Assembly (NCBI GenBank): GCA_963422465.1
Contig: OY730173.1
Coordinates: forward strand, 2,852,001 to 2,916,000
Origin: Lichina pygmaea
Taxonomy: Eukaryota > Ascomycota > Lichinomycetes > Lichinales > Lichinaceae
Reading direction: 5' to 3'
DNA length: 64,000 nucleotides
Each line of letters begins with the position of its first letter. Positions within the stretch are counted from its first letter, which is position 1. Below the pieces are notes generated by a model. It was not told where the DNA came from. It saw only the letters and a program-made list of their open reading frames with translations, and made no database searches. A program made the translations under genes and the position numbers. This document shows, piece by piece, positions 7,656-62,652 of this stretch.

Positions 7656-9340
7656 TCATCGCGGACCCAATTTTTCCAGGGCGCGCGTCGGGCCAAGCTC
7701 GTGCCAGTCGTCTTTGGTGATCCACATGTCGTCTTTGTCCGCCATCTGGACGGAGAGGAGCGGTTTACTGAGGTTAGTGCCGGATCAAGAAGGAATCTGC
7801 TGGGTGGGGATGGCAAGGGAGAGATAGATGGGTGGAGGGTGATGGGATTGAGAGATGATTGGCAGGAAGACGGGAGGTGAGACTTAAAGAAGTTGGTGTG
7901 CCTTACAATGTTGGCTAGTACGGCGCCGCCTAAAAAGACCATGTGTCGCCGTCGAGGAGGATCTTCGATGCGGAGCTTGAATTTCTAGTTTGGGATAGGT
8001 CAGCTCTAGGGCAACGTCAACGGCATCGCTCGTGATAACAGAACATACGTTCATCCGCTCCGTGTTTCCATTCAAAACTCTCGTCAACCACAGCTGCTTC
8101 ATTTCCTTCTCGAGTCGACTCGGTAGGCCCGGATACATGCTACTTCCACCGCTGAGCACGATGGCCCTGTAGAGGCTGCTCCGGACGTCCACGTCCGCCG
8201 CCTGGATGGTGTTGAACAAGAACTCTGCGATACCCGGCTGTTCGACGTCGACCAAGTGCGGCTGGAACAGGCACTCGGGCGCCTCGAATCGTTCGCTGCC
8301 GACGCGGATCACTCGCCCGTCTGGCAGCGTGTAGCTCTCGACCAGCACCGTGGTCTCCTCGCTCAGACGCTGGTCGAGCTCGAGATCGTACGAGACGTAG
8401 CATAGCTTCTCCTTCATCTGGCGGACAGTCTCAAAGTCCGCCGTGCGGTTGAGAGCGTAGCCCCGGCGCAGCAGAAGCGAGATCAACTGCCGCGTCACGT
8501 CCCGGCCAGCCACGTCCAGTCGTCTCGAGAGATGGTTGAGGACGGTGGACTCGTGCACGGGCACGATGTGTGTGACGCCATCTCCTGAGTCCACGACGAC
8601 CCCGCTGCTGAGGCCTGCCAACACATGAGCCGGGATGATTCAGACGATGGTTTGAACAACGGCGCAGAGCATACCTTGAGCGTACAATGCAAGAACTGCC
8701 TGGATAGCCACATATACGCCTCCAAAGTCGTACCGCTCAAACATGACCTCGCACATATGCTCCCTGTTCTTGATGGGATTGACCGGCGGCTCGGTGAGGA
8801 GGATCTTTCGACCGGCCGTGTTGATCTTCATCTTCTCGCGGAAGGTGTAGTCCCAGAGATGTTGCATGTCATCCCACCTTTTGACGATGCCGTTGTCCAT
8901 CTACACCGCAGACACACGTTAGACAAGACTCCACTCCTCCTGCCCAGGTAGCCAGGCCGCTCTCTGACGGCTGCTGGTGACATACCGGGTACGTGATCTG
9001 CAGCATCGTCCTCGCTGCCGCAGCCTCGTCGCCGCACATGATGTCCTTGACGACGACATCTCCTGCGCGTTCTTCGGTCCGCAAGATCGGCCGACCGACT
9101 ATAGACGGGTACTGAAACTCGGGGAAGTTCTAATGGTCCAACCGACGTTGAGGGTCAGTCTACGTCAGCCCCACTCTCCTAACGACGGACACTGTTCCGG
9201 CATGCTCGTACCTGCGCCGCGTACCCCACTTTGAGGAAACCGGTGCCTCCATCGAGGACTGAACCCAGACTCCGTCAGCGTTTGGAACTGTCGTGGTCTT
9301 TGATACAGATCGCGCACGTACCGATGGGGGCGTCGGTCAT
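7656..9340 (-). CDS. ARP2: actin-related protein 2 (Arp2/3 complex)
   Basis: Subunit of the Arp2/3 complex that nucleates branched actin filaments at cortical patches and endocytic sites. Seven exons on the minus strand (9340-9322, 9258-9212, 9129-8986, 8900-8675, 8614-8049, 7984-7907, 7745-7656) give 389 aa, the usual Arp2 length. Signatures in order: [20 protein letters not shown] at the N terminus (phosphate-1 loop), [48 protein letters not shown] (phosphate-2 loop), [40 protein letters not shown] (adenosine loop), and [16 protein letters not shown]. The stop follows ALEKLGPR. All introns have clean GT-AG ends and phases agree. The gene appears intact. Confidence 0.95.
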
Positions 9341-25447: not shown

Positions 25448-28400
25448 TCAAGCCCTGACGCTAGCCCCTAAGCGGTTCTGGCTGCGAAAGCTGTTCTGCG
25501 TGTTGCTCTTCCTCGAGCCAAAGTTCGACGAGGGTCGGGCGAGCGTGTACCTACAAACACGGTGGGTCAGCTGGTTTGTTCTAGGACCGTGGAGAGGATG
25601 TTGGAGAGGGGATCGCGGAAAAGGATGGAAGAGGGAGTGGAAGAGAGATGGTTATCGGGCGCGATGGAGGAGATGGATTCGATGGCTGTGCAAAAGATCA
25701 CACGGGGAAGAGGGAAAGAGGAAAACAGAAAATGGGGGAGGCTGGTAGAGGCCGATCCAAGTACGGTACATGACCACCTCCAGCCCCGCCAGATAAACTA
25801 GAAGAATCGAAACAACTCCCTCCAAAATCGCAATACGTACTTTGCAAAAGCCCTCGCCAAAGCCTTCTTGCAGCTGACTTTCTGGCTCCCGACGAAGCTG
25901 TCGACCGTGACGGCGATGGCCCGATCAATGTCCTGCGACGAACACTGGTCGGACAGGCGCATCTTGGCGAACGCCTCCGAGATGCGGATGATGGCTTCGA
26001 GATGGCGGACCTGGGACATGTCGTTGGGTCAGCGGCGGAGGTGGTATTTTTTTTGGGGGGGGGGGGGGGGGGGGGTTGCTGAGGGGAGAATTCTCAAGGG
26101 GGTAGGGGTGTTAGGGAAGAACTAGATATATCATACGGTGATGGGATACGCCCCCGTCGCGAGACTCTCTCGGCGCATGTCGGCGAACAGTCGCGCCACC
26201 TTATCCTGGTCGATCTGATACAGCTTCGGCGAGCAGTGTTCCCGCGCGTACAGGATGTATTTCCTGAGCAGCGCCTGCGGGATCTCGCCCACCTTCTGTT
26301 CTTCCCTCGCCCCCGTGGTCGCGGTGGCTGCTTTTGGTCGGCGGCGGTTGGAGGGGATGACGTCTTCGTCGTCTTCGCCTTCGTTTTCGTTTTCGTTGGC
26401 GTTATTGGCGTCGTGGTGTTGGACGTCCTCCATGACATCATCTTTCTGCGCGGTGTCGCCGTCGGTAGGTCCACTCTTCGCCTTGGCCTTTTCGAGGATG
26501 GCCTCCGGATGGGCGCGGTCGTGGCTGTCGACGACGAAGCGCGCGAGCCGGGCGTCTTCCTCGGGATCGACCGTGTCGCGCACGACGCAGAGCACGTCGA
26601 ACCGCGAGAGGATGGGCTCGGTGAGCTCGACGTTCTGGGCAAAAGGCAGGGTCGAGTTGTACCGACCGCCGATGGGGTTGGCGGCGGCGACGATGGAGCA
26701 GCGCGCGTGCAGCGTCGTGACGATGCCGGCCTTGGAGATCGAGATGGTCTGCTGCTCCATGGCCTCGTGGATCGAGGTGCGATCCTGGTCGTTCATCTTG
26801 TCGAACTCGTCGATCAGGCACGTGCCCTTGTCGGCCAGCACCAGCGCCCCGCCCTCGAGCGTCCACTCGCCCGTCATCGGGTCCTTGCGCACGCTCGCCG
26901 TCAGACCCACGGCGCTGGCGCCCTGGCCCGTCGCGAACACGGCCCGGTGCGCCGTCTTCTCGATGTACTTGAGGAACTGCGACTTGGCCGTGCCCGGGTC
27001 GCCCAGGAGCAGGATGTTGATGTCGCCGCGGATGTTGTGCTTGCCCTGGGCCACCTTGCCGACGCCGCTGAACAGCGACAGCGCGATGGCCGTCTTGATG
27101 TCCGTGTGGCCGTAGATGCTCGGCGCGATCGACTGCACGATCTTGTCGACGACGGCCGGATCCCGCGCCAGCTGCCGGATCTGCCGCTCGTCGTCGTCCG
27201 TCAGCCGGAACCCGGCGAGCTGGTCGTGCGACTTGACGACGTAGTTCGCCTCGAGGATCGTCGCGAACACGGGGAAGCCGTTGCGGTTGTTCAGCTGGGC
27301 GTCGTAGCTGTTGCGGTAGATGCCCGTGATCTCGACCTCCTCGCCCGGCTTGGCCGAGTCGATTAGGTCCCAGAGCAGGACGACCTCGCGATGGCGCGGC
27401 AGACGCCCGGCCGGCACCGTCCCGGGCGATTCCTGCAGAGTGAGCTTCTGGTAGTTGCGGTACACCGTCCTCTCCGAGTTCAGCGTGAACGGGCCGCGAG
27501 ACTGGCAGTTCTGGCAGTACGAGATCTTGACCTCGGCGTTCAGCTCCTGCTGGAAGGGACCGAGCGTGATGCCGCACTTGCCGCAGTCAAACCGGACGTA
27601 CTTGAGCTGCGGGAAGACGCCGGTCCGTCGGGTGACGACTCCGCTCACCCGTACGAGACACCCGAGATGGGTCTGACGCAGCTGGCGGAGCGTGTAGTGC
27701 ACCGGCAGATCGGTGATGCGCACGTGGATCTCGGAGTGGATCCGCTCGTAGTCGGGATAGTGCAGCAGCGTGACGTCCATGGCGACCTGGTCGAAGATCC
27801 TCAGCATCTCGGCCGGAGCGTTGGCAAGGAAGTACGCCAGTATCGCCTTGGAGGCCGACAGATGATCGTACGAGACCTCGAGCGACTCGGCGTTGACTTC
27901 ACCGAGCGTGCGGATGCGCGTGCCGTAGACCGAGGTGCCGTGCTGGTCCGTGTACTCGGTCAGGAAGGACTTGAACTCGCGCTGGATGGTCCTGTGCACC
28001 GCCGGCAAGGCCACCCATTCCGTGAGGCTGGCGGCTTTGACGTCCTGCAGCGTCTCGAGCGACAGCTCCTCCTCCATTATGTCATCGGCCATGTAATCAT
28101 CTTCGTCTTCGTCGTAATGGTGTCGTCGTCGTCTGGGCTGCCGCGTGAGGTCCATGTTGACGTCGTCATCATCGTCCAAGAACGCCAGCGGCATCTTCTT
28201 CCGGCGGGCAAGTTCTCGGTCTCGTCGGTTCAGGCGGGCCTCGATCTGCCGCCGCGTGCCCACGTCGAGCTCGTCGTAGTCGCCCTCATCGTCGATGTAG
28301 CGGGTCTGTACGTAAGCGTCGTTCTCCCGCGGGCCATAGTCGCGCTCAAAGTTGTCGGCAAAAAGATCAATGCCGGCCTCGTCTTCGGCCATCTCGTCGA

Positions 28401-28658
28401 CGTCGTCAATGTCGGCGATGCCATCTTCATCGCCTTCACGGGCGTCCAGGTCGTCGTCGTCGTCCTGTGGGAGGATAGGCGGAGAGGAAGGCAACGCTTC
28501 GGGGCTGCGTCAGCGTGACTGTAGAAGAGAGCGAGGTGCGAACTGCGATACATACGACTCGACACAGCTCCAGCAGAGGATGTTGGCGCACCATCGTCAG
28601 GCTCTCGCGATCGCTTGCGGCGAGTAGTGCTGGTGACGCCTCGGTTTGCGGAGGACAT
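25448..28658 (-). CDS. MCM2: DNA replication licensing factor Mcm2
   Basis: Subunit of the MCM2-7 replicative helicase, loaded at origins in G1. Four minus-strand exons: about 28658-28564 (or -28556), 28504-26137, 26010-25841, 25550-25448; about 911 aa. An acidic N-terminal region (histone-binding in the family) precedes the OB fold. The zinc finger is CGKCG then CQNCQ. The ATPase has Walker A GDPGTAKSQFLKY, Walker B CLIDEFDKM, sensor-1 AAANPIGGRYNS, and arginine finger LSRFDVLCVV. The last exon gives KYTLARPSSNFGSRKS after a 290-bp intron and is easily missed. The intron at 26011-26136 contains a 21-nt G run. The strong GTATGT donor after exon 1 is out of phase by one base; a weaker donor two codons earlier (exon end 28564) restores frame. 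Confidence 0.93.
26055..26075. repeat. 21-nt G run in MCM2 intron
   Basis: On the coding strand it is a poly-C tract in the 126-bp intron between the ATPase exon and the next exon. Confidence 0.9.
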
Positions 28659-29081: not shown

Positions 29082-30886
29082 ATGGACGGCGGAGGCAACG
29101 ACGGCGCGGAAGGCAGTGTCCCGGGGAAGAGGCCTGATTGCCAGACGGCGGCTGAGTACGTCCTCTGTCCGCCCTTGAGGACGACGTTCTTCACGATTCG
29201 GAAAGCTTCGGCAGCTGACCTTGGCCCTCCTTTTAGGTTCATAGATGACCAGCTGCGTCTGGAAGCGGATGCCCGGGAGGCACTCCCCTATGTAAACAAC
29301 GCCGGCTGTCATCTTCCACTCGCCCACCTCAGCTGATGCCGTCCCAGGCTTTCGACATGTGCACACGCCCACTAGGAGCGCTACGGCAGTCTCTCTTCTC
29401 GTGTCTCACTTGTAACCCGCCACCGCTGTCGCCCTCCGAGCCGTACAACCCGGCCGGGATCTGTTACGCCTGCTCGATTTCCTGCCATGGCGAACACACT
29501 CTCGCGGAGCTGTTCTCCAAGAGGAACTTTGCCTGCGACTGCGGCACGACTCGGTTCTCCTCGACCTCGCCATGCGGTCTACGGATCAATCCCGAGACGG
29601 GATCAAAGGGAGGCTCACACTCGGAAGCACCCGTGGCCAGCAACAGATACAATCACAACTTCCAGAACAGATTCTGCAGCTGTGATCAGACCTACGACCC
29701 GCACCAAGAGAAAGCCACCATGTATCAGTGTCTGGGATTAGGCACCATTGAGGAAGGCGGCTGTGGCGAGGACTGGTGGCATCCGTCTTGTCTGCTAGGT
29801 CTGCCATCAGACTGGCACAATGATACCGACGAACACGGGGATCCTGTCAGAAACGGATGTGTTGAAGACGATGATCCAGCATCACCACCTGGTTTTCCCG
29901 ACGAGGACTCATTCGATGGGTTCATCTGTTGGAAGTGCGTCAAGAGTCACCCATGGATCAAGCGGTACGCAGGGACGACAGGATTCTTGCCACCAGTCTT
30001 TCGGGCTGCTCCCGACGACATGTCGGAAACCGCCTCGAACAAATCAACGGACGCAGCGAACGACGACCCGCCGGAGAAGTCTGGCACAGCCGTCTCTGCA
30101 GACACGTCTAAGAAGCGCAAGGTCGATGAAGGCGAGGACTCCGCCGTTGACGGAGGCCGAGCCAAGAAATCGAAATCCGACGTCGCGAACGGCCATGGAC
30201 ATCCGTCGGCCACGACCTCGAACACAGCAGCGACCAACGGCGTTGTAAAATGTGGCTACAACCAACTCCCGCCACCTCCCGACCGAAACTTCTCGCTCTT
30301 CTTCACCGAGAACTTCCGGGAGAAGCTCTGTCGGTGTGCGGTGTGTTTCCCGAAGGTCGGCCCTCACCCGCAGCTAGTCGAAGAGGAGGAGACCTACGAA
30401 CCACGTCTCTCATCCGAGTCTGGCAACGAGGACGAACATGAGGCCGATGTCGGACGAAGCAGTGCTGGGACGAACAGTCTCTTGGACATGGGAGAACGTG
30501 CTCTGAGCAACGTCGACCGCGTTCGGGCCATAGGTACCCTCCCACATCCTTTCAGCCCACGCCCCTCTTCGCCCAGCTGGCCCTCTCCCACTAGTTTTCC
30601 CCTCTCTCTTCTCGTTGCTACGCGATACAGAAGTAGCTGATGATGCACAGAGGGGGTGATGGTCTACAACGATCTCAAGGAAAAGGTCAAGGCCTTTTTA
30701 ACGCCCTTTGCGGAGACGGGTCAGCCGGTGGGGGCAGAGGATGTCAAGGAGTACTTTGCCAAGCTCCGTGGAGACGCCGAAGATCTCAAGGTAGCTAATG
30801 CTGCTGCCGTTTCTGCCCGCGGGAGCGCCTCTAGGAAAGGTCGAGACCATCGAAGGGAACAAGACGGTGAGCCGGATTGCTCTTGA
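29082..30886 (+). CDS. UBR7/Mlo2-like protein (UBR box + PHD-like)
   Basis: Putative N-recognin-type E3 ligase; animal UBR7 and fission-yeast Mlo2 are relatives. Four exons (29082-29155, 29237-29291, 29348-30533, 30651-30886) give 516 aa. The first introns are short and join QTAAE to FIDDQLRLEADAREALPY and then to AFDMCTRPLGALRQ. The UBR zinc box is LFSCLTC, GICYACSISCHGEH, and FACDCGTTRF. A PHD-like region follows: NRFCSCDQTYD, CGEDWWHPSCLLGLP, FICWKCV. A Lys/Ser-rich linker with a nuclear-signal-like KKRKVDEG comes next, and then LCRCAVCFPKV. The C terminus is uncertain: a GTGAGC donor at 30867 with a TACAG acceptor would end the protein at 30930 as DGY, 512 aa. Confidence 0.85.
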
Positions 30887-32082
30887 GCATCCCCATCTGC
30901 ACAGATGAATTGACTTGTACAGGATACTGACGTGTGACGATGCCGTCTGGCACTCTGCTCATAACGTACCGTTGACCAGTGGTGGGAGTTCCAGTCCTCC
31001 CTCCCTGCTAGGGCTAAGGTCACGTGAGAGGAGAGATCTTTCCTGTGTACTGTACGGAGTACTCCGTATCAGATTCGTAGATAGTGACACAGGGAATCGA
31101 GAGACCTTTTGCTGCTTTGGAGCTCTCCCGTACGACGACGCAGCACGTGGACACGCAGCCGATCCTCCGACACGTGCGGAAGGGTACGTATGTACGTATG
31201 TACCCAGGAGGGGTGTCCCGAAGGGACGGGAGGAGGGTAATACCCCCCCCCCCCCCCCCAATGGCACGGGTACGTAAGTACGGAAGTACGGAAGTACGGA
31301 GTACGTAACGTACAGTAAGCACCTCTATTTCGGAGAGGGAGTGAAGTCACGTGCCGACAGAGGAGACTATTGGATTAGTACGTACAGTACGTATAGGTAC
31401 GTACCTAGATTATGTACCGTAATGCTTTGTCATAGCCACCTCACGGGGTCGTCGATTGGCTGGCGTGGTCGTCCACTTTCGCTCCCACCTTCCACATGGG
31501 AGGTCCCCACTGGTTGTGCCGGATGAACGGACGCCTCTCTGCACACCTCCTTCTTCTTTGGAGATGTGTATTAGGTGATCTTGAAACAAGACTGCTGTGT
31601 TGTTTTTGCTGTTGTTAATATCATTTCCTGGTGTCGGCGTTCCTTGGTCAAATGAACCAGACTCCGGTTTCTTTTGAATAGATCGGAACGGGGGCATACC
31701 TCCATTCGGACATCTTGAGCATGAGACCGATTTAGCAGAGCATTACGTACGTAGATGCGTACAGCCTTACAGACAAAAGGATGGCGTACAGGAGCTTGCA
31801 TGCCAAGCTTCGAACCAGGTGGACGGAACCCTACTCCGAGAGGCCGATCTGTGCAAGACAACGGCACAGGCCCTCTCTCCAAGAGCCGTCATCCATATGC
31901 AGAAGGCCATGTGGCTCCAGGGCTTCACTTGCCAGTCGAGGATTTCAACACCTTTGACTACGTCGTTGGACTGCTCGGCATGATGCATTTGTTTGTCCGA
32001 CGGGCCATTTTGGATTATGAACCGCCATGGACGCTCAAGACATGGCCACGATGCCGGATCCGATGTCCCATGGTCCGAAATT
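30887..32082. other. intergenic with GTAC islands and a C run
   Basis: No coding signature. From about 31170 to 31420 the DNA is dominated by GTACG motifs (e.g. GTAAGTACGGAAGTACGG) and a 17-nt C run. An imperfect purine-rich hairpin around GTCCCGAAGGGAC lies at about 31216-31228. Confidence 0.5.
31243..31259. repeat. 17-nt C run with AATGGCACGGGTAC flank
   Basis: Seventeen Cs followed by AATGGCACGGGTAC, and preceded by GGGTAATA. It is the same arrangement, inverted, as the left arm and G run at 777-812. Confidence 0.85.
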
Positions 32083-32790
32083 GACAGCCAGGTCTGGAAA
32101 TAGAACGGCATATGAGAAACACCCTAGGTGGGCAGGAGCAAGAGAAGTCTGCTACAAGTGATGGAGTCTCAACGAGCTCGGCCGTTATCAGACCGGAGCA
32201 CGATCAAAATCTGACTCAAGCCTCTACCGGTACAGCGAACGACATCATCAAAGACCCAACAACTCAAGACAATCCTAGAAATCGAAGATGGATGGCATTT
32301 AGTATGAGATATGGGATGAACAGTCGTCCAGGGGTCCGTTCCTCGCGCACCGGCCGTGGAGCTGGCCAGCCAGGGCAGGAAAGGAGGTTGAGGACGAGAC
32401 AACATGCAGCTGTCTCCGATGTTTCATGACTGTAACTGGACAGCCAGGTCTGGAAAAGGAACGGCATATGAGAAACAGCGTGACCCAGGTGGGCAGGAGC
32501 AAGAGGATTTTTGAATTAAGTGATAGTCTCGGCTGGCTCGACTTTGGGATAAGCCGGACGATCGAACCGTGACTCAAGCCTTTACAACGAAGGACATCAT
32601 CAAAGACCCAACGGCTCGAGACGGTTCTAGAAACCGAAGGCGGACGGAATCACCTGCCAGGGTAGTCTGGAACACAAGACGAACAGACCCTCAGAGGCCC
32701 ATTGCTCGTACACCGGCCATGAACGTGGTCCTTTCCGGCAGGAGAGAAGATTCAGGACGAGACAGCGCGAAGATGGATGCACCGGCAACC
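32083..32790. repeat. two-copy 356-bp tandem repeat
   Basis: Copies start at 32083 and 32439 (GACAGCCAGGTCTGGAAA, then GAACGGCATATGAGAAAC). Both also share GGGCAGGAGCAAGAG, GACATCATCAAAGACCCAAC and AGGACGAGACA at matching offsets (352-356 bp). The copies have diverged and I see no coding frame. They lie directly upstream of the Kex2-type polyprotein gene. Confidence 0.75.
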
Positions 32791-32907
32791 CGAGTCGTCG
32801 GCTGAGCGTCCTGCGCCTTTGGGGGCTGGGCGTCATGCTCGTCGAGATGGTTGACGATCGGTGCGTCGCCACTGCTGCTTTCTGCTGTCCCCAGCATCGG
32901 CTGGGAA

Positions 32908-32915
32908 TATATAAA
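32908..32915 (+). promoter_or_regulatory. TATA box of polyprotein gene
   Basis: TATATAAA, 160-167 bp before the start codon. A CT- and CAGC-rich leader follows. Confidence 0.6.
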
Positions 32916-33074: not shown

Positions 33075-34381
33075 ATGATGCATGTCCTCCCGCTTTCTCT
33101 CCTTGCTTTCCTGACGGCTGGATCTTTGGCCGCCCCGCCGGACCTGCGCAAGCGTCAATGGGGCTATGGCAACTGCGAGAACCGCCAGGGTGAAATCAGC
33201 GATCTCTACCAAAGATGTATTGGCAACTACGTGAGCATGGAATGACGTCCTCTTGAATGAGATTCCGTACGCTGACCACTTCAAGCGTTATACTCCCCTA
33301 CCGGCATGGCTGTACTGGGGTCCCAAGACTCCAGAAGCCTGCGCGAGATGGGTCAAAGACTATACGGGATGCTCCACGGGCAAGCCGGAAGGCGAGGGAC
33401 CGCCATCGAAGAAGCCCGCAGCCAACCAGCTCAACCGGAGGTCCGATCAGACGCTGAGCAAGCGTCAGTGGGGCTATGGCAACTGCGAGAACCGCCAGGG
33501 TGAAATCAGCGATCTCTACCAAAGATGCATCGGGAACTACGTGAGTGGAATTGATTCCCCTCCATGGATAAGCCTCGCACACTGACCGCTTCAAGCGTTA
33601 CACTCCCCTGCCGCCAGCGCTGTACTGGGGTCCCAAGACTCCAGAAGCCTGCGCGAGATGGGTCAAAGAGTATACGGGATGCTCCACGGGCAAGCCGGAA
33701 GGCAAGAAACCGACGCCGAAGAAGCCCGCAAGCAATGAGCTCAGCCGTAGATCCGATCAGACGTTGAGCAAGCGCCAGTGGGGCTATGGCAACTGCGAGA
33801 CCCGCCAGGGCGAAATCAGCGATCTCTATCAAAGATGCATTGGGAACTACGTGAGTGGGATTGATTCCCCGTCATGAATAAGTCTCGCACACTGACCACT
33901 TCAAGCGTTACACCCCCCTGCCGCCAGCGCTGTACTGGGGTCCCAAGACTCCAGAAGCCTGCGCGAGATGGGTCAAAGAGTATACGGGATGCTCCACGGG
34001 CAAGCCCGAAGGCAAGAAGCCGACGACCACGAAGCCCGCAGGCAAGCAGCTCAGTCAGAGGGTTGATCAGACGGAGGAAGGTTTCGACCTTGCTGGCCTG
34101 GACGCGGCGAATATCTATGTAAGCATCCGAGGGAAGGAGGGAGGGTATTAGGAGCGAGCATGATGCGCTGACACCATTCCGAGCCAGAACGACCTATCCG
34201 AGGCTGATCCGCAGACCATGGAGGTGATTTTTCCACAGGCAATCGAGTGAGAAGCTGAAAACGACGACATGCTAACGAAGGATCCTAGGAATATTTCTCT
34301 GCGCCGGAGTCTGGATTCGACGACCTGCCTCTCGGCCCGGCCCAGGCTGCCAGAGAGTTCAACCCTCGCTCTCCAGCTTGA
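33075..34381 (+). CDS. secreted three-repeat Cys4 polyprotein with Kex2 sites
   Basis: Not a family I recognise. Six exons (33075-33230, 33286-33540, 33596-33850, 33906-34118, 34188-34223, 34289-34381) give 335 aa. A clear signal peptide, MMHVLPLSLLAFLTAGSLAA, is followed by PPDLRKR and then three units starting QWGYGNC at residues 28, 113 and 198. Units 1 and 2 are 85 residues and end RRSDQTLSKR, so Golgi Kex2 should cut before each Gln. Each unit has C-X13-C-X22-C-X9-C and shared blocks (RQGEISDLYQRCIGNY, LYWGPKTPEACARWVK, YTGCSTGKPEG). Unit 3 lacks the RR site and continues into an acidic 80-residue tail. Introns 1-3 are each 55 bp, phase 0 and at the same place in every unit. The predicted products are Cys4 mini-proteins with N-terminal Gln. 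Confidence 0.85.
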
Positions 34382-41897: not shown

Positions 41898-43338
41898 ACG
41901 AAGCCCACCCGATCGAGGGATCGAGCAACGAGTTGCTCGGCGGAATGTCATGTGTCATGTGTCTTGTGCTGCTTGGGTCGCGGTCGCGCTGGTATTCGGC
42001 CGCGCCCGCGATTGCTTCACACGTTGTGTATATACATGCGGCCTTCTGCCTGGATCGCGCGTCGGTCCATCTATAGTTTCACGATGACGATGACGACGAC
42101 GAACATGTTCAATGTTCGACGTTCTGGGCTTTCCCGCAAGACTTCAATTACGCCATATTGAGTTTTGATAAGGGCAGACACGGCAGGCTGGCGTCAGGGC
42201 TGAGCCGCTCGTCGTCCGGCCAGCTCGTGGGCGGCCACGAATCACCTCCCATCGTGTTTCATCCTGATCAACAGCTTGTATCTCGCAGCTGTGCGCAGGC
42301 ACATCCACGAGAGCTTGGCGCTGAGATGCGCTCAACCATCGATTGGTCATGGCGGCTGTGAACGGGCAGGCTGCCTACACGCCTGCTAGGCCAGATCAAG
42401 CTGGTCCTTCCGGTGCTGGTGCGTCACCCGCACGAGCCGCAATCGGCCGAACGGCAGGTGCGGTGGCACAGAATCAAGTCCGCAGAGGCGCACAGCTCCA
42501 GGACATACGTACGTCTGCCGCGACTTGTGCGATCGAAAAGCAATGGCGACGCTCGGGCGCATGCACAATATGCGCTGGTAATGTCAAGCCGCACCTAACT
42601 GCTACTCTTCCACCGCTCACATGAACAGACGGCCTCTTCAAGCTCCAGGATCAGCCGTGCACGGAAGGGACTGGCCATTGATGCATGTACGCTCCGTACA
42701 TGTCGGTCCAGAAGCCGTGCCGCGGCAGTACCGAGATGGCCCCAGCAGTGATCTTGCGCCGGGCACGCAGCCTCATCGGCAGCAAGATGCGGTGCTACTG
42801 CCTGCCGACTGACGGCGGGTGCGCCGGACTGGCTCGGGCCCCTACGATTCGAGTCTCGCAAAACGGCAAGCTGGAAACGGGGACTGGAGACGTGACCATG
42901 CAAAGATAGCTAGCTTGCTAGCTTCCCTGCGGACTTGGACGGCCCTGCTCCCGGCCGCTTGGGGCAGCTTGCACCATGCAGTACCGGTAGCCAAAAGAGA
43001 GTGAGATCCGAGCTCCGTCGCCGCTCGACCGAACAGGAACAGGCGGACTTGCTAGGCCGGCGCGCCCGGGAGAGGCCCATGATTCTCCTCCTGCTTGGGC
43101 CGCCCCCGGTTCCGAGACGGCCGTCGGCATGTCACGCGTCGCTCTTTTTTCGCCGCCGCCGTTCGCTTCCGGCGGGAGGGAGCACGGCTAATTATACAGA
43201 GGTAACGTTCCGTATAAGGGGAGCAGTCGTCCCAACTTTTGCCGCGACAGCTTTCCTTCGACGACCGCAACGGCAGCTCTCCTTTTCGCATCGCGCGACA
43301 ACAGCTCTACGCCTTGCGTAAGCCAGGCGCAGCCCGCC
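41898..43338. other. intergenic; promoter of methyltransferase gene
   Basis: No coding signature. GGCTAATTATACAGAGG near 43186-43202 may be a TATA-like site for the downstream gene. Confidence 0.4.
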
Positions 43339-45364
43339 ATGGCCGAAATGCAGCAGGCTCCGGGTGATTCACCGGCGTTCCTGTCGCAGCCGGTGACGCC
43401 GGAAGGGACCCTCGAGATCGACGATCGCGACGCCGGGTCCGATGCGGGCGACTCGACCTTCAGCGAGGTGTCGAGCTACACGACGTCGTTGATCACCGAG
43501 GTGACGAGCTACCGCTACGAGAACGGCAGGAGATACTCCTCGGACAGATTCGGGAGTGAGTACGCCGGAGGGGGACACTCTTTTCGGCCGCGCCTTCGCC
43601 CGTCTCACGGTCCCGTCGCAGACTACGTCATGCCCAACGACGAGCAGGAGGTCGAGCGGCTCGACATCTGCCACGAGATGTTCAAGAGACGGCTGAACGG
43701 CAAACTGCATCTGGCGCCGATCGGACCCAGCCCTCAGCGTGTCTTGGACATCGGCTGCGGCAGCGGCATATGGGCCATCGAGATGGGTGCGTCGCCGACG
43801 TGGACGGCCGAACGGCTGCGGGCTGCGTGCTGACCGCGGCCGATCAGGCGATCTGTATCCTTCGGCCGAGGTAGGCTGGACTCGATACCGGGGCGCGTGC
43901 TCGAGTACGGACGGCCGTTGAGACTGGCAGATCATCGGGAATGACCTCAGCCCGATCCAACCGACGTGGATCCCGCCCAACGTGAGGTTCGAGGTGGGTC
44001 TGGCGACGGCTACCGGGGTGCTAGAGCCGGCCGGCTGACCCAAGGCCGGCTTAGGTCGACGACGCCGAGCTCGAGTGGACGTACCGCCGGGACTTTGACT
44101 ACATCCACGTGCGCTGGATGGCCGCCGGCATCAAGGACTGGCCGCGATTGCTGCAGCAAGGCTACGAGTCAGTGCGGCTCCTCCCTCTCCCCTCCGATCT
44201 GTCCTTCTCGTCCGTCGACCGCCGTCGCTCGCTGCGGCATCCACCTGGTCTTCCGTAGACTGCCCTAGACCTGGTCTCGCACCGGAACCGACGCGCTGAC
44301 CCGGCGACGCTGACCCGGCGACGCTCCTCGCGAGAAACCAGACATCTCCAGCCCGGCGGCTGGATGGAGGTGCAGGAGGTCGACATTGACATCTACTCGG
44401 AAGACGGCAGCCTCAAGGACGACGACCCGCTGCGCGTCTGGAACAGGCAGTGCCAGGAGGCCATCGCCCTCGACGGACGCACCTTCTCGCCCGGCCCGCA
44501 CACGCGCCGCCGCATGGAGCAGGCCGGCTTCGTCAACGTCCGGGAGTATCCGTTCAAGCTGCCGATTGGCGTGTGGCCAAAGGGGAAGGACCACGTTCGT
44601 CTTTTCTCTCTGTCTGTCGTGTCCCCGTCGATGCAGCCCGTGCACTACATCGCCACCATCCGAATCTTGTCATCACACGCCTCTCCCTCCTTCGATACCG
44701 TGTCCCGCGTTCCTTCCTGGAACGGAACGAGAACCGGACCGGTGGTACCCATCTCCGCGCACACCCGTTTTCTCCGCGAGCGCTGACGACTCGTGTCACC
44801 CCTCCTGCAGAAAGACGTCGGCGCCTTCAACTACATCCAGATGGAGGAGGGTCTCGAGGCCATGTGTCTCGCGCTCTACACGCGCTATCTCAAGTGGTCT
44901 CGCGAAGAGACGTTGGTCTTCCTGCCCCAGGTCCGCAAGAGCCTGAACGACCCGAAGATCCATAGCATGTACCGCTGGTGAGTCTGTCGTCGCTCGACCT
45001 GGCGTCGACTTTCTCGGCCTTGGCTTCTTCTTTCGAGAGGTACTCTCTTCGCCGTGCATCTCGCTCCGTCTTCTTTGCGCTCTCGAGCTACTCCACCCCC
45101 TTCCCACCTCGCACGGCTACCAGCCACGCCAACCTTCAGGATTCGTTCTCGCTCACCAAGTCCACCCGTCCCTCACCCCATCTTGCACATATCCTTTCCC
45201 GTCCATATTTCCCCCCTATCGTCTCGTTTCCGTTGCAGTTTCCCTTCTCGGCGCATCGCTCCAGGTTCGGTGTCGTCGAGACCTTGGCTGACGACTCCCT
45301 CCGTGTCGAAATGGCGGCGCGTAGGTACGTCGTCTTCGGCCAGCGTCCTCAGACCGCTGCTTGA
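43339..45364 (+). CDS. LaeA-like SAM-dependent methyltransferase
   Basis: Class I methyltransferase of the fungal TAM/LaeA-like group. Some members affect secondary metabolism, but most are uncharacterised. Seven exons (43339-43786, 43848-43870, 43931-43993, 44055-44167, 44342-44594, 44811-44977, 45325-45364) give 368 aa, with every phase consistent. A Ser/Thr/acidic N-terminal 85 residues is followed by [20 protein letters not shown]. Motif I is [18 protein letters not shown]. Then come [98 protein letters not shown], and the terminal [12 protein letters not shown]. Two tiny exons (23 and 40 nt) are needed. The gene appears intact. No biosynthetic enzymes lie next to it. Confidence 0.9.
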
Positions 45365-53997: not shown

Positions 53998-56900
53998 TCA
54001 GTCGAGGAGCTTGTCCAGGCCTAGGCTGTCGAGCACCTTGTTGAGACCGAGGCCGCCGAGCAAGCCGTCGAGGATGTTGCCGAGGCCGAGACCGCCGAGC
54101 TGGATCATCTGTCAGCAATCGATGCGGAGATGGACGTTGCGCGTCGTCGGAAGGGGGAGAAACGTACCAGCTGGCCGACGAGGTTGAGCACGCCCGTGAG
54201 CAGGAGGCCGACGGCGGCGATGATCTGACCGAGCGGCTGCGTCAAGAGCGCCCACAGCGGGTTGAGCTCCTTCTTGGCGTGCGGCATGTCCTCGATCTTC
54301 CTCTTGGCCCGCTCGATCGAGTTGTGCACGTTCTCGGTGAGCTGGATCGGGGCGATCAGGGTCAGCACGGCGATGCTCATCCTCGACGGACCACACGCGA
54401 AAGGCTTGTGATGCCCTACCTCGGTGACCACCTCGGCCAGATGGTACTCCTCCGGCGTCGCCTCGGCCGTGGCGGCCTTGTGCTTGGCGTTGGACTGGAT
54501 TCTGCCATCCGGGTCCAGAGCGCGAATGGTGCCGTTCGTCTCGCTCAGGATACGTCCGCCCTCTTCGATCAGCGGCTTGACGTCCTTGACGACCTTCTCC
54601 TCGTCGAGCTCATCCTTCGGCGTCCGATCCGCCGCGTCCAGGCGCTGTCGTAGAACGTTAGCGGTCGGAAGAACGTCGTCGCGAGGAGGAGATCGGGCGC
54701 TCACGTCTTCGATGTTCTTGAGCACCGGCTTCACCTTGTCCAGAGCCTGGCCGATCATCACCGCCAGCTTCTTGGCCAGCTCTCGATCCTCCTTCTCCTT
54801 CTTCAGCCTCTCCTGCTCCTCGGGGCCGATCTCCTCTTCCGGCTCCGGCGGTATGTCCTCGAGCAGGGTCGCGTGACCGACCGTCTGGCCCTTCTGGTCG
54901 ACAATGTCGCCGTCCTCGTCAATCTCCTTTCCGGTGCACTTGCTCGGCTCGCCTTCGGTGAGCTTGCCGATGAGGTCGCCGTTCTCGTCGACGACGTTCC
55001 CCTCACGGTTGACCTTGCGTCCCGCGAGCGGGTTGTGCTTCCTCTCGACCTCGGGCTCCTCCCAGCGCTCGGCCTTGCCCAGGGGGTTGCCGCTGCCGTC
55101 GAGCACGTCGCCGTCCTCGTCGACCTTCTTACCGGCCAGCGCCTTCGCGTCGCCCTCGATCAGGCGGCCGATGATGCCGCCCTTGGCGTCGACCACCTTG
55201 CCGTCCTTGTCGACGGTGGCGCCCGGGAAGTCGGCGAACGGACCATCCTTCTTCTTGTCGCGTTCGCTGGCCGGCACGAGCTCGGCCTTGCCAACGATCT
55301 CGCCCGAGTCGTTCCATACGTTGCCAAGCTTGTCGGACCGGCGCCCGGCGAGCTTCTTGGGGTCGCCCTCGACCAGCTTGCCGAAGATGGTGCCGTGCTC
55401 GTCGACGACGTTGCCGACCTTGTTGACCTTCTTGCCCGCGAGCTCGGACACGTCGACCTCCGGTTCCGGTTCGGGCTCGGGCTCTTCGTAGCGCTCGGCC
55501 TTGCCGAGGAGGTTTCCGTTCTTGTCGACGACGTCGCCGTCCGGGTCTACCTTCTTGCCCACCAACGTCTTGGCGTCGCCCTCGACGAGCTTGCCGACGA
55601 CGAGACCGTCGTACGCGACGAAGCCTTCCTTGCCGATGGTCGCGTCCGGGAAGTCTTCAAACGGCCGGACGACGTTCTGTTTCCGCTCGTCCTCGGGGAG
55701 AAGTTCGGCTTCGCCGATGACCTTGCCCGAGTCGTCCCAGATCTTGCCCTCGGCGTCGCAGGGCTTGCCGATCAGCTGCTGCAGGTTGCCCTTGATCACG
55801 CGGCCGACGACGCTGCCGGCCTCGTCCACGACGTTTCCAGCCTTGTTGACCTTCTTGCCTTCGAGCAGAGACAGATCGGGTTTCTCCTCATCGTCCTCGT
55901 CGTCGGCCAGCTCGATCTTGCCGACGGGCTTGCCATCCTTGCCCAAGAGATTTCCGTCCTTGTCGACGCTCATGATGTTCTTGTTCTTCGAGAGCTTCTT
56001 GGCGTCTCCGTCGATCAGTTGGCCAAGGACGCGGCCGTCCTTGTCGGAGACCTGGCCGCTTTCATCCACCTTGAGCGGTCCGACGATGGATTCTGGGTCG
56101 ATCTTGTCCCCGGCCTCCTCGGCTTTCTCCTCGACCTTATCCGCGGCGCCTTCGGCCGCCTCTCCGACCTTCTCGGCGTCGGCCGAGGCCAACTCGATCT
56201 TGCCGGCGGGCTTCCCATCCTCGCCCACGAGGTTTCCATCCTTGTCGACGCTCTTGATGTCCTTTCTCCGAGCCAGCTTCGTCGGGTCCCCTTCCGTCAG
56301 CTTGCCGATGACGCGGCCGTCCTTGTCTGCAACCTCGCCACTCTCTTTCACCGCGAGCGGTCCCACGACGGATGCCGGGTCGATCTTGTCCCCTGCTTCC
56401 TCGGCTTTCTCTTCCACCTTACCGCCAGCTTCGTCGACTGCCTCGTCCGTCTTCTCGTCGGCCGAGGCCAGCTCGATCTTACCGACGGGCTTACCATCTT
56501 CGCCCACGAGATTTCCGTCCTTGTCGACGCTCTTGATGTCCTTTCTTTGCGACAGCTTCTTCGCGTCGCCCTCTTTCAACTTGCCGATGGCTCGCCCGTC
56601 CTTGTCGGTGACGTCGCCGCTCTCGGTCACCTTGAGCGGACCCACGATGGATTCCGGGTCAATCTTATCTCCGACTTCCTCGGCCCTTTCTTCGGCCCCC
56701 TTGGCAGCATCGCCGGCCTTGTCTCGTGCCTCGTCCGCCGCACCGTCGACGGTCCCTTCTGCATCGGTAGGTTCGGCCGTGCCGATGACGTTGCCCTCGT
56801 CGTCGACGATATCGCCTTCCTGATCGACCACGCTGCCTCCAATCTTGTCGGCCTCGCCTTCGCTCACCTTGCCGATGACGTTGCCATCGTCGTCGACGAC

Positions 56901-57269
56901 CTTGCCGTCCTCGGCGACCTTGCCGGCCGGCACGATGTCTTCGCCGGCGTCCTCGACCTCATCGTCGACGGTCTCGGCAGCGTCTCCGACTTCGTCCGCG
57001 GCCCGATGGGCAGCCCCGTCCGCGTCTGGGGCTTCCGTGTCCGGAGCGTCACCGACGGTGCCGTCAACCGTACCGTCGGTAGCGTTTTCCGCGTCGTCCG
57101 CCTCACCTTGCGCGTCGTCGGCGACCTCGTCGACGTGCTTCTGCTCTGGCCGTGCATCCTCGGCCTTCTTGGCCGCGTTTTCCGCGCCACCTTTCGCCTT
57201 CTCGGGCGTGGCGCGAGAGCCGACCTCGCTGGCGCCGGAAGCAGCCTTCCTCGTGGCCGCGTCGGCCAT
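53998..57269 (-). CDS. LEA-domain protein with nine DUF3659 double repeats
   Basis: Large hydrophilic fungal protein of the LEA/DUF3659 group; a desiccation or stress role is inferred, not shown. Exons 57269-54420, 54341-54168 and 54108-53998 give 1044 aa. The 78-bp intron has no stop and is easily read through. The N-terminal 170 residues are Ala/Asp/Glu-rich. About residues 115-810 hold nine modules, each of two halves with the pattern GxVxDxxGxxIGKLxEGDxKxL and KxVDKDGNLVGxDGKPxGK. Then a Glu/Lys-rich helical linker, EVVTELTENVHNSIERAKRK, a hydrophobic IIAAVGLLLTGVLNLVGQL, and a Gly/Leu-rich end, GGLGLGNILDGLLGGLGLNK. The ATG at 57269 gives MADAATRKAASG. A long antisense frame (54873-57311) is a shadow. 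Confidence 0.88.
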
Positions 57270-59013
57270 GGTCGTGGACGCGGACGTGGACGTCCCCGAT
57301 TCCGAGCGTGACACCGAGAGGGGTATAAATCCCGTTGCTGTCGCTCACGGGACGGATGGCTGTTCCGTGTTGGTGTATATATCAGATGGGGGATGATCTT
57401 GTGACGATGACAATGGATGTCCCTCAAGAGCTTCGAGTCGTGAGTATCAACGCAGCAGCTGACGGGAGGAGACGGACCGATAAGTAGGTCGGAGCTCTCG
57501 TGCTCTCCCTGCATCTCTCGCCGTCTGGGCCCTTCGTTGCTCTTCCCCACCCCTCCCCTCCCCTCCTCTCCTCTTCCTTCCTCTCCGCCGCCCCCTCCGA
57601 GCCCAAGCCTGGCCAGGCTCTTCCAAGCTTTCGAGTTGCTCTCTTGCATGACGGGCGCGCCGTCCGATGTGGTTTCTGGTGCCGCGGTACGTTCCGTACA
57701 TACGTACGTACTCGACTCCGGAAGTACTACTCCGTACAGTACTCCTCCGTACGTCTGGCCCATATTCGCGGGACGAAAAAGGACCGTATACTTCTCCACC
57801 TGACGGAGTAGCCAGGCTTCACCCGGTCCGGTCCGGGCACTGAGGTCGCGTAAGCCTGCCCGGTTCGGCCCGTCCGAACAGAGTGCGGGACGAACGAGCG
57901 CCCCACGACATCCTCAAGAGGCGTTCGGTTCGGGACCCAACGGTGCGGTCCACACCAGCCACAGCACCCCGTCATTGGTCCGCTTTCCCTAGCGCGTCTG
58001 ACGTCATGGATCCCTCGACCTCGACCCTCAAAGGCCCTATCGCTTTGGTCGCCACGCCGCTTTTCCGTCGCTCTCTCTCTCTCCCTGCCGAACAATGGGC
58101 TGCAGCGAGAAGCGAAAACAACAAGCTTGTTTCGAGTCGAATGCGTGCCGACGTAGGACAGTCACGGCAGTACGTAATTGCTCGACCGGCAAGCTGCAGA
58201 CAGTACGTGACACCCCCATCCTATCACCACTACTGTACGAACCATCAGCCACCTTTTCTTGAAAAAAAGAAATGTAGGAACAACGAACGCTGTCTTTGTC
58301 CGTCGGATGACGATGTGCCCTACCTTAGGGCTAGCCCTAGGTGGCAAATAGCGCTTGAGGGAACACGTTTAGCTGCTTAGCTAGCCTCCAAGGATAAGGC
58401 CAATGTCTCTCACTTCTCAGCTTTTCGCTGTCTGCTGTAGAAGATCTCTGTCGATCGGTCTTGGTGCTTTCTAGCTGTAAGATCCACAGTCGTTAAAGGA
58501 ATACGACCAACCTCTCCGAAGAGACGGATTTGTCAGCCGTAGAACGATTGCTCTCATCTCTTGCGGGAAGCCCTCCCTGCTACGCAAAGTGAATTTTTCA
58601 TGCTCTTGTCAAGACGTCAAAGATTCTCGTTGTGCAGCTACACTTGTGTTCGGTTTGCTGTGGGTAAAACAGTAAAGTACCACGACAGATAAGACAGGGG
58701 GACGCTCTCGAACCAACAGACCAGGGACTAGATAAGCGCGGAACGCGGACAGGGTATTGCTGCTAGATGTATAATGACGGCCCAATGCAAATGTTATCCT
58801 GAGAACATTAGGACGAGGGGTAGATTTTGAAAAGTGGACTCTGGAGAAGATTGTTCCAAGATGGTGGCAGATGACACGTGGTGATGTAGAAGAAGAAGAA
58901 GAGGGAGTCGCTGCCGCTCGTGACGATAACGATGATGATGGTGATGGTGGCGACGAGACAGAGACGATGGTGAGTGGAGATTCGATCGGGTCATACGATG
59001 GCCGAGAGAGGGA
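57270..59013. promoter_or_regulatory. upstream region of the large LEA gene
   Basis: GTATATATCAGATGG (about 57373-57387) is a plausible TATA region about 105 bp upstream of the ATG. A pyrimidine tract lies at about 57540-57600, and a GTAC island at about 57690-57755. No gene recognised between 57800 and 59013. Confidence 0.45.
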
Positions 59014-60061
59014 TCACTGGTGCCCGAGACCGGTCGGGATCTTGATCGTCACCGACACCGTGTGCTTCGACGCCTCGACGTTGAGGATGATGTCGGTGGG
59101 GCTGCCGTCCTGCCTGCCCTCGTGCTTGACCGAGCCGTCGAGACCGACGCGGACAATGTCCTGGACGCCGTCGCCGCCCGTGCCTCGATCCTTCTCCGAG
59201 TCTGCCTTGCTGGCCCTGCCGAGCACGTTGCCGTCGTCGTCGACGATCTCGCCCGCGTCGTTGACCGTCTTGCCGGCGAGCTCGGACGGGTCGCCGCTCG
59301 CCTTGCCGACGACGTTCCCGTCCTCGTCGATGACGTTGCCGGCGTCGTCGACCGTCTTGCCCACGAGCCCGCCCATGTCGTGCGCGGTCTCCTCGGCCTT
59401 GTCGGCCGCGTCGTCGATCTTTCCGACCACGTTTCCGTCGTCGTCCACGACGTTGCCGGACTCGTCGACCGTCTTGCCGGCCGCGTCGCCGACGTCACCT
59501 GACACCTTTCCGAGCACGTTCCTCGAACCGTCCACGATGTTGCCCGGATCGCCGACCTTCTTGCCGACGAGGTTGGAGATGTCGCCGAGGGAGCCGGTAG
59601 CCCGATCCTTGGCGCCGCCGAGCTTGTCGGTCGCGCCGCCGGCCTGCTTCGTGGCCCGATCGGCGGTGTCGGTCGCCTTCTCCCGCGCGCCTTCTGCGGC
59701 TTCGCCGGCCTTCTTTTGCCCGTCGGCGGCCGTGCCTTGAGCCTTGTCACCGAGGTCTTGCGCGCCTTGCTTGGTCTTGCTCGCAGCGTCCTTGGCCTTC
59801 GGCGGCGCCTGTTGGGCCTTGCCGGCCGCCTTCCCGGCCTGTGCTTGACCTTGGCCGGCTGCGCCTTGGGCCTTGCCGCCCACGTCCTCTGCGGCCTTCT
59901 CACCGCCATCCTTGACCTTGCTCGCTTTCTCTTGAGCTTTGCCGGGGGCTTGGCTGGCCTGCTCCTGCGCCTTCTGGGGCGCCTTCGAGGCCTGGTCGGC
60001 GACGCCGTTCAGAGCGTCCTCGCCCTCACCGTCGTCGCCTTCGTCCTCGTCGTCCTCTTCG

Positions 60062-60098
<37 letters not shown>

Positions 60099-60933
60099 GC
60101 TCGTCGGCGTGCTCTCCCTCGAGGCCTTCGTCGTCATCCTCGTCTTCCTCGTCGTCTTTCTCGTCTTCATCCCCGTCGTGGTCCTCGTTGTCTTCACCAT
60201 CTTCGTCGTGTTCATCCTCATCTGCCGCCCGAGGCTCGACGTCCTCGTCCTTGCCCGCCAGGCCGTTGAGTTTCCGGTCGCGGTCGGCCTCGGCTACGGC
60301 ACGATTCGACCGATCTTCGGCTTCGGCCTCCTGCTCCGGCTTGTCTCCCTCCTCGTCGTGGTCTGGCTCGGGCTCCTTCTCCGGGTCCTCGTAGGCCTCT
60401 TCTTGTTCGGTTTCCTTGCTCTGTCCCTTTGGTTCCGGCTTCGGTTCCGGTCTCTCCTCGGCTAGTTTCTGCTCCGACTCTTTTTCCGGTTCCTTCTCTA
60501 GCGGCTCCTTCTCCGGCTTGCGCTTCGGCGTCTTCTTTGGCTTGGGCGTCTCGGGCTCCTGTTCGGGCTCGGACTCGTTCGGCGGAGGTGCCGACTTCTT
60601 CTTCTTCTTCTTCTTCAGGGACTTTGGCGTATCGCCGCCTTTGCTGGGGGTCGAGGGCTTGAACTTGGGTGGCGGCCTGGCCTGCTCGGACGAAGGCGTC
60701 TTAGGCTGACTCTGCTGCACCCTCTTCTGCGCATCGTCCTTGCCGGGCGTGCTCGGTGGCTTGGTCTTGCCCGCGCTCGAGGGCGGTCGGGCCGGCGCCT
60801 GGTCGGCCTTGGGCGTCGAATCCGGCTTCGGCGTCTTTGGCTTCTTCTTCACCGGCGTCGGCGTGCCCTGCTGCTTGGTCTTGTCGGCCGACTTGGACGG
60901 GGTTTTCGGAGAGGCCGGGGGTTGAGACGACAT
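59014..60933 (-). CDS. LEA/DUF3659 protein with charged repeat region
   Basis: One-exon frame, 639 aa from MSSQPPASPKTPSKSADK. The first 200 residues are Pro/Lys-rich (TPKSLKKKKKKKSAPPP); then comes a Glu/Pro/Lys-rich segment, and then an almost purely acidic stretch of about 110 residues (DDDDDDDDDDGEED). An LEA-like Ala/Lys/Gln 11-mer region follows (KAQEKASKVKDGGEKAAEDV, GKAAGKAQQAPPKAKDAASK). Four DUF3659-type half repeats come near the end (LVGKTVDDAGNVIDEDGNVV, LAGKTVNDAGEIVDDDGNVL). The C terminus, TDIILNVEASKHTVSVTIK, is a short beta-like segment similar in character to the end of the 62653 gene. A stress-protective role is inferred from the family. The frame is open further upstream, but MSSQPP is the first family-like start. 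Confidence 0.8.
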
Positions 60934-62652
60934 GTCGAACGTGTCGGACTCGGGGATGGATATTCTGAGGGTGAAAGCTTGGTGATCCAGCGTGAACGCA
61001 GCGAATGACGACAGATGCACGGCTCGGCTATCTTGATCACCGAGAGATTCGAGGGGAGTAGAACGAGGAGGAGAGATGCGCGTTCGGCGGGCGGGGGAGG
61101 GTCTGGTTGATATAGTAGCTGCCTGGGCTGGCGCAGCAAGGAAGCGTTCAACACTGGGAGCGGAGCTATCGTATGGGTATACCGCCACTACCAAGAGACA
61201 TCGTATGGACGCGACTGTATTCATGAGGCGGCGAGGCCGACGTGACTCACAGCTCCTCCCCAACCCCTCCCCAGCCCCTCACCTATCCCCTCTCTCGACT
61301 GCGCGAATCAGATGCGAAAGCTGCGGCACCAACGCGAGCTCGGAGCGACCTTGGAGCAGTGATGGAGTCGCCAACGGCAGACGGGTTGCCGCAGTACGAG
61401 TACTACTGTACCACGGGTATCTTGAGTACGGCTCCGTGGCCTCCTAGTCCGTGGGAGTGGTAAGTAGTGATACAGCAGCGGCAGGGCAGGCGTAACGCAC
61501 CCGGTGGCACTGTAGCGCAGCAGTGTCGAGGTACCGTACGGAAGTACTACGAATGTACATTCGTACGAGTACCGCTCCGGGTATAGTATGCATGTACAGT
61601 ACGTATACGTACTGTAGGTAGGAACGACAGGCGTACGTCATGCGCTAGAAGTCGAGTGCGGCTGGGTGTCTTTGCCTGGTCTAGGCCCAGGCCCAGATCC
61701 AGACGGTCCTGGGCCGTGACGTTAGTTGCCGTGCGAAGGTACTGTACCGTTGCCGGATGGTGTTGTCGCTGAACGAGTCGCCTCGATTACTAATCCATGA
61801 CGAGCATGGCGGCTGGAAGTCAATCGACAAGTGACGTCCTACGGTACCGGTACCCGACGTGCCGATCCATGTGCCGGTCCATGTGCCGCGAACTCTCCAG
61901 AGACGAAGGAATAGGCGAGCTGTCAGTGTTCCCGAGCAGAGCCTCATCCGCGCGGTTCCTGTTACAGTACAGTATTATCGCACCGCTGCAGTCCGATCCA
62001 CCGTACTTCGTACGGAAAGACGCTCCGTACTCTCGTACGTTAGCTGGCAGCATCTGCAAAGATGGGTCCTCCATCGCACAGAGAATTGACGTGGTGGTCG
62101 GTCCTTTGAGAATCTGTCCGACTGGTTCCTGGGTGCTGCGGGGCCTGTAGGCTGCACGAGGCCTACAGCCGTTTCTTACCATCGACCTATGAGCTCGTAC
62201 GTTGCAACTCTACGCGTGCACCTGCCGCGCTTCGGTTGCGTGGCGGTCTCTTGTCACAAAGAGAACGCTCTCCAAGTCATGACCAAGGCTCGACTTTACG
62301 GAAGTACCCTTTGTTCGTCCGTACATACCTACGGCTGCAGCAGCGGCAGTGGCGACGGGCAAAGTTAGCGCTCGGCGTTCGCGCCGAAACCCGAATTTGC
62401 TTCGCCCTAGCGACGGACTCGGCCTGTGGCTTGTCCTATCTGGATCCGACCAATCTCCTCCGCCACCGGCCACCGGCCACCGCGCCGTCGCCGCCGCCAG
62501 CCCGCTGCATCTGGCCGACAGGATGCGTCTTCGTGCCCCCTAATTACTAAAGAATGGCCACATCCCCGCCGATCCGTTGGCATTTGGGCTCGATAGAAGC
62601 CGATTCCTTTCCTGGTAGTTGATCGCAGTCGAGAGGAGTCCAAAGGGAAAAG
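60934..62652. promoter_or_regulatory. divergent upstream region of two LEA-cluster genes
   Basis: Lies between the start of the minus-strand gene (60933) and the plus-strand gene (62653). GTAC islands at about 61533-61620 and 61960-62042. No gene recognised. GGTTGATATAGTAGC (about 61103-61117) may be a TATA region for the minus gene. Confidence 0.45.

Follow-up and report, generated by a model that had tools for sequence, protein, structure and literature searches.

A Lichina gene predicted to encode a Kex2-type precursor of three near-identical four-cysteine units

A gene near the middle of a 64,000-nucleotide stretch of the Lichina pygmaea genome (contig OY730173.1, positions 2,852,001 to 2,916,000; hereafter, the window) is predicted to encode a secretory precursor in which three near-identical units, each with four cysteines, are separated by sites for a Kex2-type protease. 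We consider it probable that this precursor is of the type of the Kex2-processed repeat proteins (KEPs) and is cut between its units. Judged from its sequence, the architecture is a known fungal one and the unit itself is new, an orphan. Conservation marks the gene as real, because a Lichina confinis protein with the same three units is 80% identical to its product over 96% of the query. That protein, P0001, is the unannotated hypothetical protein M1815_000337 of a public L. confinis metagenome-assembled genome. The features of the gene, all on the forward strand, are as follows.

32908-32913, +: TATA-box-like sequence upstream of the gene (pattern match only)
33078-34381, +: repeat-precursor gene, six exons, 334 aa; spliced model with GT..AG introns and one open frame
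33078-33230, 33286-33540, 33596-33850, 33906-34118, 34188-34223 and 34289-34381, +: the six exons
33078-33155, +: signal-like peptide (hydrophobic VLPLSLLA stretch) and short propeptide ending LRKR; conserved in P0001
33156-33465, +: unit 1, 85 aa plus intron; core (QWGYGNC to TGC), linker, LNRR, spacer SDQTLSKR
33231-33285, +: intron of unit 1, 55 nt, phase 0 after IGNY, branch-like CTGAC
33436-33441, +: RR site LNRR↓S closing the unit 1 product
33460-33465, +: KR site LSKR↓Q ahead of unit 2
33466-33775, +: unit 2, 85 aa plus intron; core, linker, LSRR, spacer SDQTLSKR
33541-33595, +: intron of unit 2, 55 nt, position as in unit 1
33746-33751, +: RR site LSRR↓S closing the unit 2 product
33770-33775, +: KR site LSKR↓Q ahead of unit 3
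33776-34061, +: unit 3 with its intron; core and linker, terminating in LSQR, which is not a dibasic site
33851-33905, +: intron of unit 3, 55 nt, position as in units 1 and 2
34074-34381, +: acidic C-terminal tail, 57 aa, net charge -11, with introns 34119-34187 and 34224-34288

The original prediction, made from the DNA letters, placed the gene at 33075 to 34381. The gene and its end stand, but the start more likely lies at 33078: a second in-frame ATG is found one codon 5' of it, at 33075, and 33078 is favoured because P0001 opens MHVLPL. The proposed signal peptide survives as a hydrophobic, signal-like start, so judged by eye and by hydropathy, that is kept in L. confinis.

Three 85-residue repeats start at residues 27, 112 and 197 of the precursor. 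In the spliced model, all three units show the spacing C-X13-C-X22-C-X9-C and begin QWGYGNC directly after KR, exactly as first described. The 85 residues proposed for the unit hold as the repeat period but not as the predicted product, which is about 77 residues followed by an 8-residue spacer. The 54-residue cores are identical to one another at 50, 51 or 53 of 54 positions, depending on the pair; they are hydrophilic (GRAVY -0.82 to -0.89) and contain 9-10 Trp and Tyr residues each, and the linkers between them are rich in Lys and Pro. A core on its own has a net charge of +1, and the 76-residue units 1-3 have +3, +5 and +5. The YGN near the N terminus of the unit presumably recalls the pediocin-like motif as a look-alike only. 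From the cysteine spacing comes the idea of an alpha-hairpin or CHCH-like fold, in which two helices would be joined by C1-C4 and C2-C3. At the DNA level, every repeat is interrupted by a 55-nt intron of its own, in phase 0 behind IGNY and with a branch-like CTGAC, and Tandem Repeats Finder reports a period of 310 bp with 2.9 copies, 89% matches and a score of 1418 (threshold 50).

The arrangement of the dibasic sites argues for processing. The L. pygmaea protein has five [KR]R sites (LRKR↓Q, LNRR↓S, LSKR↓Q, LSRR↓S and LSKR↓Q), all of which carry Leu at P4 and lie outside the cysteine cores. The genome also encodes, on contig 1, a protein of kexin architecture (subtilase and P domain). Because the P4-Leu sites all lie outside the cores and a kexin gene is present, Kex2-type processing of the precursor appears likely. 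When unit 2 was shuffled, two or more P4-Leu sites with none in the core arose in 2 of 20,000 shuffles, a test that rests on one unit because the repeats are not independent. Every KK pair (four in L. pygmaea, two in L. confinis) has Pro behind it, a P1' residue that would be expected to hinder Kex2. Within each L. pygmaea core, LYQR fits a loose LxxR pattern. For Kex2 itself, the available text of PMC8528282 gives Leu as the preferred P4 residue and does not have Gln among the top P2 residues, and in one luciferase library of Pichia, Gln at P1' belonged with the low producers (PMC3777899, available text).

Cutting in silico, on the assumption of a 19-residue signal peptide, yields 77-residue units and 8-residue spacers, each 85-residue period holding two dibasic sites. 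Only units 1 and 2 have dibasic sites at both ends. Unit 3 of L. pygmaea lacks a dibasic exit and stays with the tail as a fragment of 138 residues, whereas that of L. confinis is released as 75 residues. The proposal that several copies are released by dibasic cutting is therefore upheld in part: there are sites between the units with Leu at P4 in five of five, a kexin gene and conservation of the sites in L. confinis, but in L. pygmaea unit 3 probably remains attached to the acidic tail.

In the processing model that we favour, signal peptidase would act first, and a Golgi kexin would then cut after LRKR, LN/SRR and LSKR. Kex1-type trimming would leave units of about 75 residues, with a mass of about 8.45 kDa provided that two disulfides and an N-terminal pyroglutamate form. 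The calculated average masses are near 8447 and 8446 Da for units 1 and 2 of L. pygmaea and near 15252 Da for its unit 3 with the tail attached. Pyroglutamated KEP peptides have been found in Coprinopsis cinerea (PMC9769878, available text); a genome search for glutaminyl cyclase (PF05096) matched none and detected 3 of 14 controls. Units 1 and 2 would be freed and unit 3 would remain tail-joined in L. pygmaea, and all three would be freed in L. confinis. Triplication would give more product per transcript and, with low confidence, the acidic tail might mask the basic units during transit.

P0001 continues across the introns of the L. pygmaea gene at the same positions, and does so in the tail as well, although the two proteins match less closely there. 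It shares the three units, the cysteine spacing and the cutting sites with the L. pygmaea protein. It differs in keeping LNRR after unit 3 (LNRR↓A), in having a KR before Pro, without P4 Leu, in the third linker, and in a tail that measures 45 residues from EEGFDL compared with 57 in L. pygmaea. L-x-[KR]-R thus occurs in L. confinis at the same five places and at LNRR↓A, giving six P4-Leu sites. Two further records, P0002 and P0003, are intron-blind fragments of the L. confinis type, taken from an 879,132-bp ENA contig; P0003 matches the start of P0001 as far as the first intron, and both fragments run on into intron sequence where unit 1 has its intron. In P0002, the unit 1 frame breaks shortly past the third cysteine, where P0001 reads through; this may be either a sequencing error or a genuine broken allele.

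Between the species, the cores of units 1, 2 and 3 are identical at 50, 51 and 50 of 54 positions, and the linkers and tail vary. Among the three units of L. pygmaea (pairs 1-2, 2-3 and 1-3), core pS is 0.177, 0.115 and 0.234 and core pN is 0.031, 0.008 and 0.039. Linker pN for the same pairs is 0.127, 0.251 and 0.304, the last two values taking in positions beyond the end of unit 3. These values indicate that the core is constrained and the linkers much less so. In an ungapped comparison of the same pairs, 27, 49 and 29 of the 55 intron positions are identical. The triplication probably predates the species split, since three units occur in each species and in each of them unit 3 is distinguished by Thr at core position 9. 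Because core positions 40 and 46 differ between the species in all three units, the comparison of two sites in two species suggests concerted evolution of the units.

Searches beyond these records leave the unit as unrecognised as it was in the original prediction: the profile search gave Lichina-type fragments only, and Pfam, NCBIfam and PDB gave no significant match. A search with the whole protein kept 1 of 1133 candidates (E <= 1), and the unit profile kept 2 of 1461 (E <= 10), both fragments of the L. confinis-type gene. In Pfam, the whole protein had six matches, all below the cut-off (best E 0.049) and none to an antimicrobial family, and a single unit had no match. Against the PDB sequences, the lowest E value was 0.28 for a single unit and 0.15 for the profile, and the prokaryote library NCBIfam gave nothing; no defensin was among the Pfam and PDB matches. 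Relatives outside the three Lichina-type records were not found at the sensitivity of these searches, which need shared 5-residue words and which remote relatives would escape. The annotated proteins of Peltula and Phylliscum in the searched set gave no unit match. In the L. pygmaea genome (32.47 Mb, 8 contigs), P0001 as query (E <= 0.001) gave 4 matches and the 54-residue core (E <= 10) gave 6, all of them exons of this locus; no paralog was returned by this search, which scores the best candidates only. A literature search for Lichina together with Kex2 found no paper, and in the main text available for a survey of lichen RiPPs (PMC12048977), no word starts with Lichin.

The surroundings of the gene in the window include the following.

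1654-3078, +: DDE_1 transposase-like ORF
26134-28509, -: MCM2
29249-30637, +: UBR7-like gene
32059-32121/32415-32477 and 32231-32298/32583-32650: diverged tandem duplication upstream of the gene, period about 352-358 bp, 81% and 83% identity
36301-38535, -: long ORF rich in Ser and Thr; one apparent membrane-spanning stretch, judged by eye; no Pfam match
54108-57344 and 59017-61278, -: adjoining long ORFs with DUF3659 repeats, nine and two stretches passing

Further left of the MCM2 and UBR7-like genes lie dynactin 5, SGF29 and an actin-family gene. The named neighbours are housekeeping or unrelated genes, and most frames adjoining the precursor gene have no match. Of the 128 open frames with 130 aa or more, 40 were scanned, and they showed no biosynthetic cluster. 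The region of the tandem duplication, 32000-32800, matched only itself when searched against the genome.

The UBR7-like neighbour bears on both synteny and expression. Its matches include P0005 at 85% and P0004 at 100%, the others being at most 55% identical among the best 120 of 1903 matches. P0005, the UBR7-like ortholog, is also on a contig of 879,132 bp, as are P0002 and P0003, and this equality in contig size indicates that gene order is conserved. P0004 bears the source tag lgn, which we take to be Logan; it covers 91% of the UBR7-like query from a contig of 1740 bp. Because this contig is without the introns of the UBR7-like gene, public data seem to include transcripts from this species or from one nearly identical to it. 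No lgn-tagged match to the repeat gene appeared in the whole-protein and unit-profile searches, which may reflect weak expression or near-identical repeats that broke up the assembly, and weighs mildly against strong expression.

As to function, we tentatively propose that the product is a miniprotein of defence or of partner management in symbiosis, directed against bacteria or the cyanobacterial partner. This role is suggested by a product that would be secreted, cysteine-bearing, basic, rich in Trp and Tyr, begun by Gln and present in several copies per transcript, in a precursor with an acidic tail; with low confidence, such a basic Trp/Tyr-rich miniprotein would act outside the hypha. Points against the processing and the role are the missing dibasic exit of unit 3, LYQR in the cores, Gln at P1', the empty genome search for PF05096, the missing lgn-tagged match, a core charge of only +1 and the lack of an antimicrobial family among the Pfam matches. 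A more specific version is doubtful, in which a Lichina-specific secreted miniprotein of new fold, multiplied within its precursor and kept uniform by gene conversion, would control bacteria or the cyanobiont of a marine cyanolichen, and loss of the unit 3 exit in one species would give two product forms from a single gene, free units and one bound to the tail.

The same processing could instead supply a surface. Freed units might assemble as a surface-active or coat peptide on hyphae or thallus, as do the Kex2-released Rep1 repellents of Ustilago maydis, which form surface fibrils (PMC8528282, available text). Several near-identical copies per precursor suit such a structural role, as do the 9-10 aromatic residues of each core; the hydrophilic cores, the basic linkers and the lack of any hydrophobin or coat family among the Pfam matches speak against it, and we regard it as unlikely. 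We also consider it unlikely that the protein stays uncut, as a multivalent three-domain secreted or wall-bound protein with the Lys/Pro-rich linkers as flexible tethers. Fungal hydrophobins with 2-7 domains exist (PMC7827705, available text), and the available text of PMC12375992 states that cleavage of multi-domain hydrophobins by fungal proteases should be evaluated. An uncut protein would also fit the absent exit of unit 3 and the Pro after every KK pair. However, a tether has no need of two sites per linker, and the five P4-Leu sites all mark unit borders and recur in L. confinis. Finally, a RiPP precursor with units cyclised by UstY (DUF3328) enzymes is very improbable: ustiloxin precursors are designed with a signal peptide and repeats between Kex2 sites (PMC7329392, available text) and a weak methyltransferase-like match (27.8 bits, cut-off 27) lies 9 kb downstream at 43192-43830, but the units have about 77 residues with four conserved cysteines, DUF3328 is in none of the 40 frames scanned out of 128, and a genome search with PF11807 was empty, though no control was detected either.

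The gene offers a testable Kex2-type repeat precursor whose product resembles a folded disulfide protein rather than a short peptide. The fungal class to which it belongs is described as living exclusively with cyanobacteria (PMC4504470, available text). Should the units prove active on bacteria or the cyanobiont, they would become candidates for a molecular tool of cyanolichen symbiosis; otherwise, the two Lichina species are still a natural pair for the effect of one kexin exit site.

Among known precursors, KEPs (PMC6339444; PMC7329392; available text) share the signal-like start, the three repeats and the Kex2 sites between them. The definition of Umemura 2020 calls for a signal peptide, where the Lichina precursor has its hydrophobic N terminus, and its repeat rule asks for three or more tandem repeats, each of 8 to 100 aa, lying between KR, KK, RK or RR (PMC7329392, available text); cutting at these four pair types in silico, without the authors' repeat-scoring code, leaves repeat fragments of 69, 63 and 63 aa, in keeping with that rule. 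The cut-off of Le Marquer 2019 asks for at least four fragments after KR/RR cutting with the pattern in at least three, the C-terminal fragment being left out of the first step (PMC6339444). Emulated by cutting only and not with the authors' script, this step gives six fragments with only two unit fragments ahead of the C-terminal one, short by one, whereas L. confinis P0001 gives three unit fragments and passes. The likeness to Kex2-processed repeat proteins put forward at the outset thus holds under the Umemura repeat rule but not under the Le Marquer detection cut-off, by which the protein would be described as built like a KEP, a claim limited to design. In the KEPs of Dikarya, the class of 9-24 residues is commonest (yeast-like basidiomycetes excepted), compared with about 77 residues and four cysteines here. 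Repeats of 3 to 352 residues are on record (PMC6339444; PMC7329392; available text), so unit size does not exclude a KEP, and listed KEP types include some with Cys-domain profiles, for example Hydrophobin_2 and Chitin_bind_1.

The comparison with alpha-factor precursors, also made in the original prediction, carries over to the precursor design but not to size, nor to an XA/XP (Ste13) start after the sites, which was not seen by eye. An ascomycete alpha-type pheromone, of 9-24 residues, is ruled out for units of about 77. The multi-domain class II hydrophobins CFTH1, CPPH1 and CmQHYD, as far as their available descriptions go, likewise place tandem secreted cysteine domains in one fungal precursor. 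Hydrophobins have eight cysteines, compared with four per unit here, and the hydrophilic units have no hydrophobin match in Pfam; a hydrophobin identity was rejected on the cysteine count and the Pfam result. Copsin of Coprinopsis cinerea differs in its six disulfides and defensin fold, and is itself Kex2-cleaved and disulfide-stabilised, with an N-terminal Gln converted to pyroglutamate (PMC9769878, PMC4381204, available text); in the Lichina precursor, each predicted unit likewise has Gln at its N terminus.
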